From: a virus
DNA: 21,171 nucleotides
Virus record (IMG/VR): IMGVR_UViG_3300029989_000174
Span: 1 to 21,171 of that record
Reading direction: 5' to 3' (one strand)
The translations under genes were made by a program, and so were the position numbers. Each line of letters begins with the position of its first letter. Within the stretch, counting starts at the first letter, position 1. Shown here piece by piece: positions 13,449 to 20,738 of the stretch. The notes beneath the pieces were generated by a model, which did not search any database, was not told the DNA's origin, and saw only the letters and a program-made list of their open reading frames with translations.

Positions 13449-13691
13449 TTAATTTAGCGTTTCGTCCTCGGGTGTTTGAGTGTCTTCGCTAGTGGCTACT
13501 TGCTTCTTTGAAAGAACTACATCCCAATGCGGAGAGTTTTCGCTTTTTCTGTCCTCTTTTGGAATATGCCAAAAGGTTAAAATCTTGTCTTCGCTTATGG
13601 TGAGCGGTAAAGCCTCGTCCATTAAGCTAATTGAGATAAATTGTTTTCCTGTTTTTTCGGACTTCTTCGTCCATGCACTTCCTACTTTCAT
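13449..13691 (-). CDS. DUF736-like small phage protein, probable single-strand DNA helper
   Basis: An 80-residue protein: MKVGSAWTKKSEKTGKQFIS, ISLMDEALPLTISEDKILTF and WHIPKEDRKSENSPHWDVVL, then an acidic tail (TSEDTQTPEDETLN). The GxAWxKxSxxxGxxFIS start is like the DUF736 group of small phage and plasmid proteins. Its stop/start overlap with the RecT gene (TAATG), a beta-rich body and acidic tail suggest a small OB-fold-like protein working with the recombination genes. The acidic tail resembles those of single-strand-binding proteins, but the role is inference. Confidence 0.6.
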   Translation of the reverse strand: MKVGSAWTKKSEKTGKQFISISLMDEALPLTISEDKILTFWHIPKEDRKSENSPHWDVVLSKKQVATSEDTQTPEDETLN

Positions 13692-14332
13692 TAATTTTCC
13701 TCCTCTGTGATTTCTACTTCTACTACGTTTGATAACTTTTCCTCTAAAGTTCTAGTTTGTGTCGTTCTGCCGGGCTTGATGTCTTCTTGCTCAAATTCAT
13801 CATGTAACCCCATTAATTTATCGGGGCAATAAACACGAGCAAAGAACGCAAACGCTCTATATTGCAACATTTGAACCGGCATTGTTTTCCATTTTGAACC
13901 GTCTTTGTCAATCCAACCCTCAAGCTTTGCCATTTTAAGAGTTATCCAAGTGCCGATACATTCGTTGCCGTTCTTATCGATTGCAACAACTCTACACCCC
14001 TTTTCTTCTTGGGTTTCGCTATTTTGCCATTCTACTTTTACGTTTTTGAAATTAGAATGCACGATAGCGGCGGTATATTGACCGCTCCAACTTGGTTTAC
14101 CAAGAACAATATAAAGATTTTGCATAACAAACAAAGGGCTTCTAGCACCTATCTGTCTAGCTATATCAATGGCAATTAAGCAATTTTCGGGTTTGTTTTT
14201 GTAATTGCTTGGTACTAATTCGGATTTGCTTAAACTCTCCGCCATTTTCATAAATTGTCCGTATTGGTCTATATTGCTATAAACACTAGGTTGTGTTCCT
14301 GTTTGTTCATAGGTTATAACTTCATTTTGCAT
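13691..14332 (-). CDS. recT: RecT-family single-strand annealing protein
   Basis: A 213-residue protein. KMAESLSKSELVPSNYKNKP, then ENCLIAIDIARQIGARSPLF, then VMQNLYIVLGKPSWSG matches the RecT core: xLVPxxY....N..IA....xxG..PxxVMQNLYIVxGK. A later MLQYRAFAFFARVYCPDKLM segment is also typical. RecT binds single strands and anneals complementary DNA, working with an exonuclease in phage recombination. It lies right after a RecE-like nuclease, forming the usual pair. The length is short compared with E. coli RecT (269 residues), mainly at the C-terminus, which ends in an acidic tail (VVEVEITEEEN). It may be the annealing factor for concatemer formation. Confidence 0.85.
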   Translation of the reverse strand: MQNEVITYEQTGTQPSVYSNIDQYGQFMKMAESLSKSELVPSNYKNKPENCLIAIDIARQIGARSPLFVMQNLYIVLGKPSWSGQYTAAIVHSNFKNVKVEWQNSETQEEKGCRVVAIDKNGNECIGTWITLKMAKLEGWIDKDGSKWKTMPVQMLQYRAFAFFARVYCPDKLMGLHDEFEQEDIKPGRTTQTRTLEEKLSNVVEVEITEEEN

Positions 14333-14343
14333 TGTTTACCTTT

Positions 14344-15474
14344 CTAATATTTCAACAATTCACTATCGACCCAACGAGGGGCGTAAGCGATTGCATTTTC
14401 TACGTCAAAGTTTCCAATTAAATCATCCGGTTTAGGACTCAAGGACATTTCAATAATATGGTCGGAATAGTTATCCCAAAAGCCTTTTTCGATACATTCT
14501 TGATGAATATTAATTGCTTTTCTAATACCTTTTTGTCCGTAGTCAACAATGTTCATATCGGGCAAATAAGGCTGTGTAATATAAGGCGCTTCTTTTTCTT
14601 GCACTATAAAGAAGAAGCTTTCTACTTCGATACCTTTACCAAATAAGAACTTAGTCACTTGGTAAATACCTTCTCTATAATTAGCCGCTTGAAAATGATA
14701 CCCGAACTTAATAAAGTCGCCGTAAAAAGTCTGTGGATTAGCACTCGTGCAAGTTTTATAATCGGGTACTAACTTACAATCATAAGGTAAGAAGTCCGGG
14801 CGACATTTTAGCCACAAGCCGGTTGCTTCATCAATCCAAAATAGACTTAATTCGCTTTCGCCTTTTTGACTAAAAGCATTTTTCGCAAATTTATTATTAT
14901 TTATTGCACGTCCTACGCCTATTACTTGGTTTAATTCGTTGCTATCAAGCTCTATTCCTCTTGTATCCGTTCCGTCAAGAATAAATAAAATAGGTGTTAA
15001 ATCAGAAACATTATAATCTTTTATAGATTTATTTTTACCGTATTTATCGAACATTTTAGACATATATCTCATAAGTCTTTTATAGTTAAATAGTCGGCTT
15101 CGACCGCTTAACGGCATAAACTTTAAATCGGGTGAAAACAATAATCGGCATCTATCTCTTAAAACGTTTAAAATATCTTCTTTCAAGAGTTTCTTATAAG
15201 GATTATGCCAATATGTAGCCTCAAAAGACTCCGCACCTTCTAAAATATAAGTGTGGCAAGCTTTACCAATTTTAAAGCAAGGTTTTTCTTTTGGCTCATA
15301 TTCACCACTTAAATACTTATAGTAGTATTTTGCCGGGCAATCTAGCAACATTTTAAGCCCACTGGTAGATAATCCAATAGTTGAGTGATAAACCTCGTTT
15401 GGCATCCCTCTGATGATGCAAGGCTCTGTTATTTTCATATCTTTTTTATAATCTATAATTGAATCTTTAATCAT
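14344..15474 (-). CDS. RecE-like exonuclease, PD-(D/E)XK fold
   Basis: A 376-residue nuclease. From the N-terminus: a YHSTIGLSTSGLKMLLDCPA region (typical start of the RecE C-terminal domain family), the GKACHTYILEG His motif near residue 80, ESELSLFWIDEATGLWLKCR, the catalytic PDFLPYDCKLVPDYKTC block with the Asp and DxK residues, and FGYHFQAANYREGI with the conserved Gln and Tyr. It digests one strand of linear double-stranded DNA to give the tails used by RecT. The start chosen is the ATG 15472-15474, which overlaps the stop of a 53-residue gene (TAATG). The earlier ATG at 15507 would overlap that gene by 34 bases. The length matches stand-alone RecE cores. Confidence 0.85.
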   Translation of the reverse strand: MIKDSIIDYKKDMKITEPCIIRGMPNEVYHSTIGLSTSGLKMLLDCPAKYYYKYLSGEYEPKEKPCFKIGKACHTYILEGAESFEATYWHNPYKKLLKEDILNVLRDRCRLLFSPDLKFMPLSGRSRLFNYKRLMRYMSKMFDKYGKNKSIKDYNVSDLTPILFILDGTDTRGIELDSNELNQVIGVGRAINNNKFAKNAFSQKGESELSLFWIDEATGLWLKCRPDFLPYDCKLVPDYKTCTSANPQTFYGDFIKFGYHFQAANYREGIYQVTKFLFGKGIEVESFFFIVQEKEAPYITQPYLPDMNIVDYGQKGIRKAINIHQECIEKGFWDNYSDHIIEMSLSPKPDDLIGNFDVENAIAYAPRWVDSELLKY

Positions 15475-15635
15475 TATATTTCTCTTTCGTCTATTTCGAG
15501 AACCCATCTCAAGGTGTTAATCATTGTATTGTTTTGGATTTTGTCTTTTTTAGTAACTTCTTTGAAGTTCTTTGTAATTTCTTTTATCTCTTGACAATTT
15601 GCTAACATTTCTCTTATTTCTTTTTCAAGTCTCAT
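15474..15635 (-). CDS. 53-residue helical protein, unknown
   Basis: A short gene: MRLEKEIREMLANCQEIKEI, then TKNFKEVTKKDKIQNN and TMINTLRWVLEIDEREI. It begins directly after the stop of the 61-residue gene and ends in a TAATG overlap with the RecE-like gene, so three genes are packed without a gap. It is charged and helical, with no visible motif. The tight coupling on both sides supports it as a real gene. Confidence 0.65.
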   Translation of the reverse strand: MRLEKEIREMLANCQEIKEITKNFKEVTKKDKIQNNTMINTLRWVLEIDEREI

Positions 15636-16826: not shown

Positions 16827-16855
16827 TGTTAATTTTGTTGTGTTAATTTGTTAAT
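16827..16855. repeat. Three TGTTAAT repeats between RHH gene and next gene
   Basis: TGTTAAT occurs at 16827-16833, 16841-16847 and 16849-16855 (14 and 8 bases apart). Its complement ATTAACA also occurs at 17061-17067, on the other side of the RHH gene. Such short spaced repeats could be operator sites. The region 16764-16890 has no other clear element. Confidence 0.35.
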
Positions 16856-16890: not shown

Positions 16891-17025
16891 TTATGCTGCC
16901 TCCTTTTGTTTCTCAAGCCAAAGCCCAAAAGCTTCGGTCGCGATTTGGCTTCTGTTTAAGTCTTTATGTATATAATTATCGACTTCTTCAACCATCTCGC
17001 CGGGTACGTTAATTGAAATTATCAT
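16891..17025 (-). CDS. Ribbon-helix-helix (CopG/Arc-type) regulator, first lytic gene
   Basis: A 44-residue protein: MIISINVPGEMVEEVDNYIH, then KDLNRSQIATEAFGLW and LEKQKEAA. An N-terminal strand (IISINVPG), helix A (EMVEEVDNYI), the NRSQ turn and helix B fit the ribbon-helix-helix fold, which binds DNA as dimers through the strand. AGAGG lies 5 bases before the ATG (17023-17025). It is the first gene downstream of the leftward promoter and opposite the CI-like repressor, the place held by Cro in lambda and by Arc in P22. It may lower repressor expression or autoregulate. Binding sites are not proven. Confidence 0.8.
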   Translation of the reverse strand: MIISINVPGEMVEEVDNYIHKDLNRSQIATEAFGLWLEKQKEAA

Positions 17026-17042
17026 TACTACCTCTCGTACAA

Positions 17043-17066
17043 TTATTAAGTTATTAAGTTATTAAC
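17043..17066. repeat. Three tandem 8-bp repeats in the lytic leader
   Basis: TTATTAAG, TTATTAAG and TTATTAAC are contiguous at 17043-17066. They lie between the leftward transcription start (about 17066) and the RHH start codon. This is a likely regulator-binding site, possibly of the RHH protein itself. Confidence 0.45.
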
Positions 17067-17067
17067 A

Positions 17068-17101
17068 TTTACATTGTAAACCAACTACACTACAATGTCA
17101 A
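17068..17101. promoter_or_regulatory. Overlapping divergent promoters of the lysogeny switch
   Basis: The rightward promoter is TTTACA (17068-17073), 17 bases, TACAAT (17091-17096). The leftward promoter is TTGACA (complement of 17096-17101), 17 bases, TACAAT (complement of 17073-17078). The element is an inverted repeat with 11-bp arms (10 of 11 matching) and a 12-base centre. Each arm holds the -35 of one promoter and the -10 of the other, so polymerase can occupy only one at a time. Each arm also holds a TACAnTGT motif that may be the repressor operator. Confidence 0.7.
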
Positions 17102-17107
17102 GTACAA

Positions 17108-17124
17108 GTCGGTAAAATACCGAA
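17108..17124. promoter_or_regulatory. Inverted repeat in the repressor leader
   Basis: TCGGTA, AAA, TACCGA is a 6-bp inverted repeat (about 17109-17123) between the rightward transcription start and the repressor ATG at 17138. It could be an operator or a small RNA hairpin. No good ribosome site precedes the ATG (AAAGTGA). Confidence 0.4.
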
Positions 17125-17137
17125 CAAAGTAAAGTGA

Positions 17138-17581
17138 ATGAACATAAATCAAGCTATAATTGAATTATATAGATTTACAAAACTTAACGAAGGACTGTTG
17201 AGTTATGCTTATCTTGCAAAAATTTTCGGGTGCAGTCGCTCTTATGTTTCGGAAATGGCAAAAGCAGATAAAGACCTAGACGAGAACAAAATAGCACTAT
17301 TAGAGCATCGTTATAACTTCTCTTTTTTTGATAGGGAAAATGCAAAAAAAAGATTAATCGAGGTGGCTGATTGCTTAGCTATAAAGTTACATGATTATGA
17401 AGAATTTACTTTGTTTGACTTAGATGAATTGGTAAAACTTTACAATGTCAACCTAAATTATATTCTTTGTGGCGTAGGCGATATGTTCATCGCAAAAGAC
17501 CCCACCTCAAATAAAGATGAAGATTTAGATACAAAAATCGAGAACCGGATTAACGAGATTTTGGAAAAACGAGGTTTATAA
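17138..17581 (+). CDS. CI-like phage repressor, short form without protease
   Basis: A 147-residue DNA-binding protein. HTH: LSYAYLAKIFGCSRSYVSEM at about residues 20-39. A second conserved block LDELVKLYNVNLNYILCGVG then DMF, at about 93-115, is the pattern (xxLYxVxxNYxLxGxGxMF) usual in CI-type repressors. The end (DTKIENRINEILEKRGL) is a likely coiled coil for dimerisation. There is no S24-type peptidase domain, so it cannot be cleaved by RecA-type autoproteolysis as lambda CI is; induction must work otherwise. It is driven by the rightward half of the overlapping promoters. A TACAATGTC site lies inside the gene (17441-17449). Confidence 0.78.
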   Translation: MNINQAIIELYRFTKLNEGLLSYAYLAKIFGCSRSYVSEMAKADKDLDENKIALLEHRYNFSFFDRENAKKRLIEVADCLAIKLHDYEEFTLFDLDELVKLYNVNLNYILCGVGDMFIAKDPTSNKDEDLDTKIENRINEILEKRGL

Positions 17582-17820: not shown

Positions 17821-18033
17821 ATGAAAGATTTTAAAAAGATAATAGGGCGTAGAATTTCAATAGAACGTAGAAAGCTCGGATTAAGCCAAGAAGACCTCGC
17901 GGAACTTGTCGGCGTTCATAGAACGTACATCGGAACGGTTGAACGAGGCGAAAAGAATATCTCGTTAATGACTGTACGGAAATTCGCTCTAGCTATGGAT
18001 TTGCCCCTAGAAATTTTGTTCAAAGGATATTAA
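17821..18033 (+). CDS. Xre-family HTH regulator, resembles C proteins
   Basis: A 70-residue protein that is one Xre/Cro HTH domain: RRKLGLSQEDLAELVGVHRT, then YIGTVERGEKNISL and a last helix. The VHRTYIGxVERGEKN motif is typical of controller (C) proteins of restriction-modification systems and of related phage regulators. No classical ribosome site precedes the ATG: the sequence AGCCTTTAAAATGGCT forms a small hairpin directly before it. C-protein genes are often leaderless or poorly led. A palindrome lies upstream. Target genes may be itself, the convergent gene or the conversion genes. There is no endonuclease gene beside it, so the C-protein resemblance is sequence-level only. Confidence 0.82.
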   Translation: MKDFKKIIGRRISIERRKLGLSQEDLAELVGVHRTYIGTVERGEKNISLMTVRKFALAMDLPLEILFKGY

Positions 18034-18040
18034 ATAAGTT

Positions 18041-18088
18041 TACATTGTCCACCGGGAACTTGTTTTTTAAAAGCCTGTTGTTTATAAT
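18041..18088 (+). promoter_or_regulatory. Promoter with operator-like site for the secreted-protein genes
   Basis: TTGTTT (18060-18065), 17 bases, TATAAT (18083-18088). The -10 is perfect and the -35 weak. TACATTGTC (18041-18049), matching the TACAnTGT motif of the switch, lies about 10 bases upstream of the -35. This suggests that the repressor may act here, positively or negatively. Confidence 0.55.
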
Positions 18089-19147: not shown

Positions 19148-20719
19148 ATGCAAAAAGCCGTAATATACGTTAGAGTCTCAACGGACGAGCAAGCAAAGCA
19201 TGGGTATAGCATTGATATGCAACAAAACCAATGTTTAAATTTTGCACAAAGCAATAATTATCAAGTAACCAATATTTATATTGATGATGGGTATACCGCC
19301 AAAAATATGAATAGACCACAATTAAAAAAGATGCTTGAGGATGTTAAAAAACGAAGTAACGGAATTTCTGCGGTTATCGCTTGGCGTTGTGATAGGGTTG
19401 TAAGGAATAATAGCAATTATTTTGCAAAAATAATACCGCATTTCGAAAAATACGGCATTTTGTTGCTCTCTGCTACTGAAAATAACGATATGAATACGCC
19501 CTATGGACGTTATATCCGTAATAACCAAATAAATAATGCAGAATTAGAATCGGGCTTAACTTCAATTCGTACAATCGAAAATTTAAAGGAAAAAGCAAGA
19601 CAGGGATATTATCCGGGGGCAATAGTGCCAATAGGCTATAAGCGAATCGAAAAAAATCGAAAAAAGATTATTATTCCGGATGTAGAAAAAGCTCATTTTG
19701 TTAAACAACTTTTTGAACTATACGCCACAGGACTCTATACCCAAAAATCCCTAGCCGTTGAAATGAGCAAACGAGGATTTACAACAAAAAAAAATAAACC
19801 TTGCGACCGAAAAGTTGTAGAAAATATTTTAAATAACAATATTATGTTTTATATAGGTAAATTCTATTGGACTTCCACCGACCCTCTTACCATGGGGAAA
19901 GTACAAAAACTATATCCCGGCAAACACGAAGCCATTATCCCTTTCGAATTATATAAAACCGTGCTTAGCGTAATGGGAGAAAACACAAATTTAAAAGTTA
20001 ATACCCATGACTTTTTATATAAAGGCTTAGTAAAATGTCAACAAACAGGAAAATTATTCGTGGGCGAAAAACAAAGGGGTGAGCATAAAAGTAGTGAATA
20101 TAAGTATTATAGATGCCATCATTGTGATTTAGAGTGTGCAAAAGAATGTAAGAAGATAATTAAAGAAGAAGTTATAACAGAGACTATACTAGAAATATTT
20201 AAAAGCTTCCATCTTAGTGATGAAGAGCTTAAAAATACGAAAGCAGATTTAAAAGGTATTTTAAATTATAGTGAACAATTGAACGAAAAACGAAAAAGCC
20301 AAATAGAAGGTCAATTAACTAAATTAAAAAATAGATTAAACATGCTTTATGAAGATAAATTGGATGATGTTATAACGGAAGAAATATATTTTAATAAACG
20401 CGAAACATATCAAAATCAGATAGACGATTTGACACTTGAATATACTGCATTGATGAAAACAAACACCGAAATTATGTCAAGATTAGATATGATGCTCGAA
20501 CTCTGTAAAGACCTTTACGGAACGTATTTACGCCTTAGTGATGAGAAAAAGCGCGAATTAATAAAAATCCTCTGCTCGAACCTTTTTTGGGATGGCTCAA
20601 AGCTAATAATAACAATAAAAAGCGCGTTTTCGAGCTTGCTCAAATTCGCGCTTTTAAAAAATGGGGCGGGAGATGGGGTTCGAACCCACGTATATCGGCA
20701 CCACAAGCCGAGGTCTTAA
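19148..20719 (+). CDS. Large serine integrase
   Basis: A 523-residue site-specific recombinase. Resolvase domain at 1-150: VIYVRVSTDEQ with catalytic Ser11, then RCDRVVRN with the conserved Arg. The recombinase DNA-binding domain follows (GAIVPIGYKR at about 158, then LYATGLYTQKSLAVEMSKRG). The zinc-ribbon is unusual: KCQQTGK has only one Cys and is followed by CHHCDLECAKEC. A long coiled coil spans about 365-460, as in large serine integrases. The last ~17 residues (GDGVRTHVYRHHKPRS) come from antisense tRNA-His, so the end changes when the prophage leaves. It integrates and, with a directionality factor, excises the prophage. No excisionase gene is recognised. AAAGG lies before the ATG. Confidence 0.95.
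   Translation: MQKAVIYVRVSTDEQAKHGYSIDMQQNQCLNFAQSNNYQVTNIYIDDGYTAKNMNRPQLKKMLEDVKKRSNGISAVIAWRCDRVVRNNSNYFAKIIPHFEKYGILLLSATENNDMNTPYGRYIRNNQINNAELESGLTSIRTIENLKEKARQGYYPGAIVPIGYKRIEKNRKKIIIPDVEKAHFVKQLFELYATGLYTQKSLAVEMSKRGFTTKKNKPCDRKVVENILNNNIMFYIGKFYWTSTDPLTMGKVQKLYPGKHEAIIPFELYKTVLSVMGENTNLKVNTHDFLYKGLVKCQQTGKLFVGEKQRGEHKSSEYKYYRCHHCDLECAKECKKIIKEEVITETILEIFKSFHLSDEELKNTKADLKGILNYSEQLNEKRKSQIEGQLTKLKNRLNMLYEDKLDDVITEEIYFNKRETYQNQIDDLTLEYTALMKTNTEIMSRLDMMLELCKDLYGTYLRLSDEKKRELIKILCSNLFWDGSKLIITIKSAFSSLLKFALLKNGAGDGVRTHVYRHHKPRS
20618..20655 (-). terminator. tRNA-His terminator inside the integrase reading frame
   Basis: AAAAGCGCG (20618-20626) pairs with CGCGCTTTT (20647-20655), with an inner GAGC/GCTC stem. 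Read leftward from tRNA-His it is followed by TATTGTTATT, with T-run TTTTT. It sits 7 bases past the tRNA 3' end and within the last 30 integrase codons. In the rightward direction the T-run is short, so it may serve weakly there. Confidence 0.6.
20662..20719. other. Attachment site region (prophage-host junction)
   Basis: The integrase frame enters the tRNA 3' half and stops at TAA 20717-20719. The true junction lies at or left of this point. The partner copy would be past the left end of the window and is not visible here. Confidence 0.5.
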
Positions 20720-20738
20720 CCACTTGACGACACCCGCC
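20662..20738 (-). tRNA. tRNA-His (anticodon GTG), phage integration site
   Basis: A full cloverleaf, 77 bases with the encoded CCA: acceptor 5' end GGCGGGTG with the extra G-1 of tRNA-His, D arm TCAAGTGGTTAAGACC, anticodon arm TCGGC-TTGTGGT-GCCGA with anticodon GTG, T arm GTGGG-TTCGAAC-CCCAT, acceptor 3' end CTCCCGC, discriminator C73, CCA. One T-T mismatch is seen in the acceptor (pair 6-67). Its 3' end faces the integrase, as usual for phages that use tRNA genes and rebuild the 3' part. The crossover point cannot be fixed without the other prophage end. Confidence 0.93.

Follow-up and report, generated by a model that had tools for sequence, protein, structure and literature searches.

A divergent control region with overlapping promoter motifs and candidate repressor operators in a temperate phage of Candidatus Gastranaerophilales

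Background

Within 34 bases of a phage genome (positions 17068–17101), two promoter motifs of opposite orientation overlap, one directed towards a repressor gene and the other towards an early lytic operon. The initial annotation read this arrangement as a lysogeny switch, which raises the question of whether two RNA polymerases competing for the same bases could decide between lysis and lysogeny, or whether the motifs are simply contained in the operators of a repressor. The sequence analysed, hereafter referred to as the window, is the entire IMG/VR virus record IMGVR_UViG_3300029989_000174 (21,171 bases). We favour the second answer: with a probability of about 0.58, the 34 bases form the central part of a divergent control region in a temperate phage of Gastranaerophilales, in which a strong leftward promoter (PL) lies inside the operators of an HTH repressor and polymerase exclusion is a by-product.

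Results

The window is a temperate phage record. A serine integrase gene (19148–20719, + strand; phrog_95, 2e-84) is the final gene of its rightward module, and relatives of this integrase (47–58% identity) were found in six genome contigs, five of them titled Candidatus Gastranaerophilales and one Fusobacterium sp. CAG:439, the latter with the same prophage type. The host was therefore placed in the order Candidatus Gastranaerophilales, little-studied gut bacteria on whose prophages a literature search yielded almost nothing. Open reading frames and family matches gave a leftward set of genes for a ribbon-helix-helix (RHH) type protein, an exonuclease VIII-like protein (14344–15507, − strand; phrog_412, 5e-66), a RecT-like annealing protein (13691–14332, − strand; phrog_561, 3e-56) and DnaD-like proteins, and the last three identify this direction as lytic. 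The rightward genes encode the repressor, a 70-aa Cro/CI-type HTH protein (17821–18033, + strand; also present 3′ of the repressor in the related loci L007 and L041), two putative exported proteins and the integrase. The layout is of the divergent cI/cro type, with the repressor gene at 17138 (+) opposed to the early lytic operon (−) and an intergenic region between them.

A tRNA-His gene (20662–20737, − strand) overlaps the 3′ end of the integrase gene, and the integrase C-termini of L002, L003 and L007 end in almost identical residues (GIRTHAYRNHNPRS); the attachment core therefore probably lies inside tRNA-His and helps to encode the integrase C-terminus.

Both promoter motifs of the initial annotation were recovered exactly, as parts of one symmetric element. 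On the + strand, TTTACA (17068–17073) is followed after a 17-bp spacer by TACAAT (17091–17096), with a consensus score of 10/12, and on the − strand TTGACA (17101–17096) is followed after 17 bp by TACAAT (17078–17073), with a score of 11/12, the top promoter match in the 3.5 kb scanned. The 11-nt arms (17068–17078 and 17091–17101, with 12 nt between them) match at 10 of 11 positions (91% complementary), and each combines the −35 of one promoter with the −10 of the other, the left arm holding the rightward −35 and leftward −10 and the right arm the reverse.

In this A+T-rich DNA, single promoter matches were no more numerous than chance predicts (13, against 14.0 ± 4.3 expected from shuffled sequences). 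When the 112-bp gap was simulated 20,000 times with a Markov model, overlapping divergent pairs with a combined score of at least 21 and an offset of at most 6 never arose, and 100 simulated sequences of 21 kb contained no pair with both scores at least 10, a sum of at least 21 and an offset of at most 8; the coincident divergent pair is poorly explained by chance. The two motifs are not independent, as a near-palindrome with a promoter on one strand nearly has one on the other, and this coupling by symmetry makes them one coincidence rather than two.

Repressor-divergent gaps were compared between the window and L002, L003/L006, L007, L041, L044 and L046/L102, the last two being near identical in the switch region and therefore counted as one switch. 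PL (17073–17101, − strand; predicted start near 17066) came out of this comparison as the best-supported element of the region, and the earlier proposal of a leftward lytic promoter is well supported by sequence conservation. A perfect leftward TTGACA, 17–18 bp from an acceptable −10, is present in five other distinct repressor gaps (L002, L007, L041, L044 and L046/L102), and the L003/L006 pair has the hexamer at a spacing of 19 bp; in every gap compared except that of L003/L006, the perfect TTGACA belongs to the best leftward promoter. L046/L102 align with the window through the PL −10, parts of the spacer and TGTCAAGT, and the flanks are homologous. TAAATTGTCAA is kept in L007 and L041 although the adjacent operator-like sequence differs, and in other relatives the conserved PL −35 is surrounded by their own dyads or repeats, as would be expected if operators follow the repressor.

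The first gene of the lytic operon (16891–17025, − strand; AGAGG precedes its start) encodes a protein of 44 aa, which by itself had no Pfam or PHROG match and no match in 286 genomes of the order. A profile made from this protein and two divergent RHH proteins (of L046 and L002) matched solved nickel-responsive regulators (2e-4), and the structure model consists of an extended N-terminal stretch followed by two helices (pLDDT 68); the product is thus an RHH protein by profile and model only. Between this gene and the PL −10 box, three tandem octamers of period 8 (TTATTAAG twice and TTATTAAC) occupy positions 17043–17066, approximately +1 to +24 of PL. A 16-mer within them (17046–17061) is identical, on the opposite strand, in the L046 gap (0 of 60 shuffles, mean 8.7) and recurs in L102, at a distance from the lytic −10 box of 12 bp in the window and 13 bp in the L046 switch. 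The RHH proteins of L046 and L102 have a common N-terminal ribbon (KNKISVSVSISLDLL) and differ in the remainder, the L102 copy of the 16-mer thus being accompanied by an RHH protein with the same ribbon. Given the shared 16-mer at a matching distance from the lytic −10 box, the octamers look like the operator of the RHH protein, and their position at the PL start suggests negative autoregulation: the RHH protein probably regulates its own promoter, PL, instead of opposing the repressor promoter in the manner of Cro. Among the loci that contain the 16-mer, most were unrelated.

These observations bear on the reading that the near-palindrome is mainly a protein-binding site, with neither promoter used as drawn and transcripts starting elsewhere in the A+T-rich gap. 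The chance-level number of single promoter matches is compatible with it, but relatives share the position and −35 of PL, and the spacing between the 16-mer and the PL −10 box is maintained, and we regard this reading as very improbable.

The putative rightward promoter (17068–17096, + strand; predicted start near 17104) is a motif that relatives did not corroborate to the same extent. Neither of its hexamers survives in the homologous L046/L102 switch, where the aligned bases are not promoter-like, and no comparable promoter overlap was found in the repressor gaps of L003/L006, L007, L041 and L044. The search for the same arrangement in related prophages did return one analogue, in L002, where TTGACA-18-TATTTT overlaps the leftward promoter with a shift of 7–7.5 bp, but its geometry is different. 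The exact 34-bp pattern, allowing up to two mismatches, was matched in 12 of 286 genomes of the order, no more than for the reversed-pattern control, and the arrangement is therefore not a widespread element. The single viral match to the pattern, L055, was rejected, as it lies between co-directional genes with no divergent gap.

Near-palindromic overlapping promoter motifs of identical geometry also occur at L059 1446–1479, L066 1501–1534 and L064 1501–1534, in the gaps that separate an HTH-like gene from a divergent 96-aa gene, close to a resolvase-like gene. These loci were retrieved by searching with that very pattern and lend no independent support.

Since the rightward hexamers are lost in L046/L102, the overlap recurs only in L002 and a rival extended −10 exists (see below), the rightward promoter at 17068 remains a weakly supported motif. 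Of the proposed lysogeny switch, the divergent control region with a real leftward promoter was retained, but not the rightward promoter as its established second half.

Were both overlapping promoters active and of comparable strength, exclusion between two polymerases might itself constitute the lysis-lysogeny switch. Motif quality, a coincidence beyond chance and the overlapping pair in the L002 repressor gap agree with such a scheme, and plasmid pLS20 offers a precedent, its coinciding promoters Pc and Pr forming a switch together with a regulator (PMC4207663). However, the two pLS20 promoters differ greatly in strength and the regulator is needed (PMC4207663), and bidirectional promoters tested in E. 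coli show no competition at basal activity, but only when one direction is strongly activated (PMC12825309). With the loss of the rightward hexamers from the homologous L046/L102 switch and the lack of a comparable overlap in L003/L006, L007, L041 and L044 also weighing against it, we consider this scheme unlikely. Two polymerases cannot share these bases, and exclusion would be unavoidable if both promoters work; as basal bidirectional promoters do not compete and pLS20 needs unequal promoters and a regulator, such exclusion is probably a side effect of sharing an operator and not what decides the outcome, forming at most a secondary layer.

The promoter of the repressor might lie elsewhere, for example at a conserved element at 16838–16851 (− strand; ACAAATTAACACAA). 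Its sequence ACANAWTAACACAA is invariant in six prophages (the window, L002 6691–6708, L007 5337–5354, L041 4196–4213 and L003/L006), where it is present once per phage, 5′ of the early lytic genes, and it was found in no unrelated locus among 67 loci searched. This element could be a nut-like antitermination site in the lytic leader or, read on the opposite strand, a promoter of the extended −10 type: the conserved TTGTGTTAWTNTGT reads rightward as TGTGT plus a −10, with scores of 8–11, and on the lytic strand a hairpin follows the element in several of the phages (L003, z = −4.05; L002, z = −2.24; others weak, including the window with z = −0.68). An inverted repeat, AGACAAN...NTTGTCT, lies beside the conserved element at L007 5318–5337 and at equivalent places in L041 and L003, and the L003 change GTTGCCT within it leaves pairing intact in the lytic RNA by way of G-U.

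On the promoter reading of the 16838 element, PL would be the only promoter in the 34 bases, and the repressor would be expressed from the extended −10 (TGTGTTAATTT) at 16838–16850, rightward through the RHH gene, the two promoters facing each other as in P2-like phages and the rightward match at 17068 being a by-product of operator symmetry. The invariance and specificity of the element, its promoter scores and its place in relatives, to the left of PL and within the gap, are in line with this; in the window, however, it lies beyond the RHH gene, approximately 290 bp from the repressor start, and has a poor −10 (TAATTT). With a hairpin following it on the lytic strand in several relatives, it could equally well belong to the leader of the lytic RNA, and an origin of the repressor transcript at this element seems distinctly unlikely.

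The preferred reading, in which PL lies inside repressor operators, draws on the symmetry of the 34 bases. A perfect 13-bp dyad, O1 (TTTACATTGTAAA; 17068–17080, centre 17074), covers the rightward −35 and the leftward −10, and O2 (17089–17101, centre 17095), an inverted imperfect copy of O1 (10 of 13 identical) and a poor dyad when taken alone, covers the leftward −35 and the rightward −10. The centres are 21 bp, or two helical turns, apart. The −35-like TTTACA and a reversed −10 are inherent in the O1 dyad, and two inverted copies at this spacing give rise to both promoter motifs automatically. O1-like sites were also identified inside the repressor gene (17439–17453, + strand; TTTACAATGTCAACC) and immediately 3′ of the second HTH gene (18039–18053, + strand; TTTACATTGTCCACC). 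The 15-mer TTTACATTGTAAACC recurs at both with at most two mismatches (expected 0.013 per 2 kb, for a length of 15 letters chosen after the sites were seen). Because of this recurrence, O1 looks like a repressor operator; as the 15-mer was picked post hoc and the site at 17439 may partly reflect codons of the conserved NVN motif, and thus coincidence, the support for the left-arm dyad as a candidate operator is good but not final.

Another dyad, TCGGTA-AAA-TACCGA (17109–17123, centre 17116), is located just 3′ of the putative rightward start. Its centre is exactly 21 bp from that of O2, the same distance as between O2 and O1, and its sequence is unrelated to theirs; the 70-aa HTH protein may bind there.

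The repressor itself (17138–17581, + strand; 147 aa) gave a weak HTH_3 match, and a domain search found in it no S24 peptidase domain of the kind present in the repressors of L002 and L003, which is why induction by self-cleavage is not expected for this protein. Short HTH repressors from other Gastranaerophilales elements match it in the C-terminal third, where residues 96–147 are 42% identical to the L044 repressor. No close relatives were found in viral contigs, genome contigs or phage records, and only partial matches were obtained in the 286 genomes of the order. A separate scan of viral contigs by recombinase alignment confirmed nothing. The structure model was of low confidence (pLDDT 59).

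Discussion

The locus is best read as a divergent lysogeny region of the ordinary kind, in whose operator both promoter motifs happen to lie. PL, the O1 dyad with its copies and the octamers shared with L046/L102 come from the sequence and its comparison with relatives, and from these elements we infer the protein-binding steps. The repressor would bind O1 and O2, covering the −35 of one promoter and the −10 of the other, and would thereby shut PL and, if active, its own weak rightward promoter, leaving the lytic genes silenced and the repressor self-limited. The RHH protein would bind the octamers at the PL start and restrain its own operon.

In a bolder version, the one operator pair, 21 bp apart, amounts to two fully overlapping opposite promoters: the bound repressor pair would silence both, and free DNA would be left to a coin-flip between polymerases, biased by the RHH protein towards the repressor side through a block of the lytic start. 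We consider this regulated coin-flip unlikely.

Several known systems resemble parts of the ordinary divergent region favoured here. In the immI region of phage P22, a secondary immunity region, the promoters Pant and Pmnt are associated with the RHH repressors Arc and Mnt; the likeness would lie in control of divergent phage promoters by a repressor of the RHH type. As at lambda OR, repressor operators here would govern divergent lytic and repressor promoters. In lambda, PR and PRM are adjacent, the operators number three, and the regulators are Cro and a CI that can be cleaved (see also PMC4557955); the window differs in its full promoter overlap and in a repressor without an S24 domain. The switch of mycobacteriophage BPs shares with the one proposed here a short repressor, a palindromic operator within the lytic promoter and further operator sites elsewhere in the genome, but it is depicted with PR and Prep as a divergent pair, each promoter having an operator of its own, and its immunity is integration-dependent (PMC4557955).

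In promoter arrangement the locus resembles pLS20, where divergent coinciding promoters serve a regulator (Rco) and a large operon and the regulator motif lies over the core promoters (PMC4207663). That system controls plasmid conjugation, with tetrameric Rco looping two operators and with peptide signalling (PMC4207663), whereas the window belongs to a phage, and its operators and promoter activities are predicted. The pseudo-symmetrical bidirectional promoters of E. coli permit, through their symmetry, two polymerase orientations of which one binding excludes the other, but transcription from them begins next to or inside a −10 element common to both directions (PMC12825309), whereas here each −35 overlaps the opposite −10 and the predicted starts are approximately 38 bp apart. 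Each ingredient is thus known, be it a divergent lysogeny region, an operator lying inside a promoter or a switch of overlapping divergent promoters, and the combination is a variant.

The present analysis mainly contributes comparative evidence for PL, together with the operator repeats and the 16-mer linked to the RHH protein; new are the O1 dyad with its recurrences, the octamers with the 16-mer shared by L046/L102, and a repressor devoid of the S24 domain, which offers a starting point for studying prophage induction that does not depend on S24 cleavage. If both promoters are active, the locus would represent a minimal lysogeny switch without promoter separation in Gastranaerophilales. The conservative reading still yields candidate operators for a repressor lacking a cleavage domain and for an RHH autoregulator.
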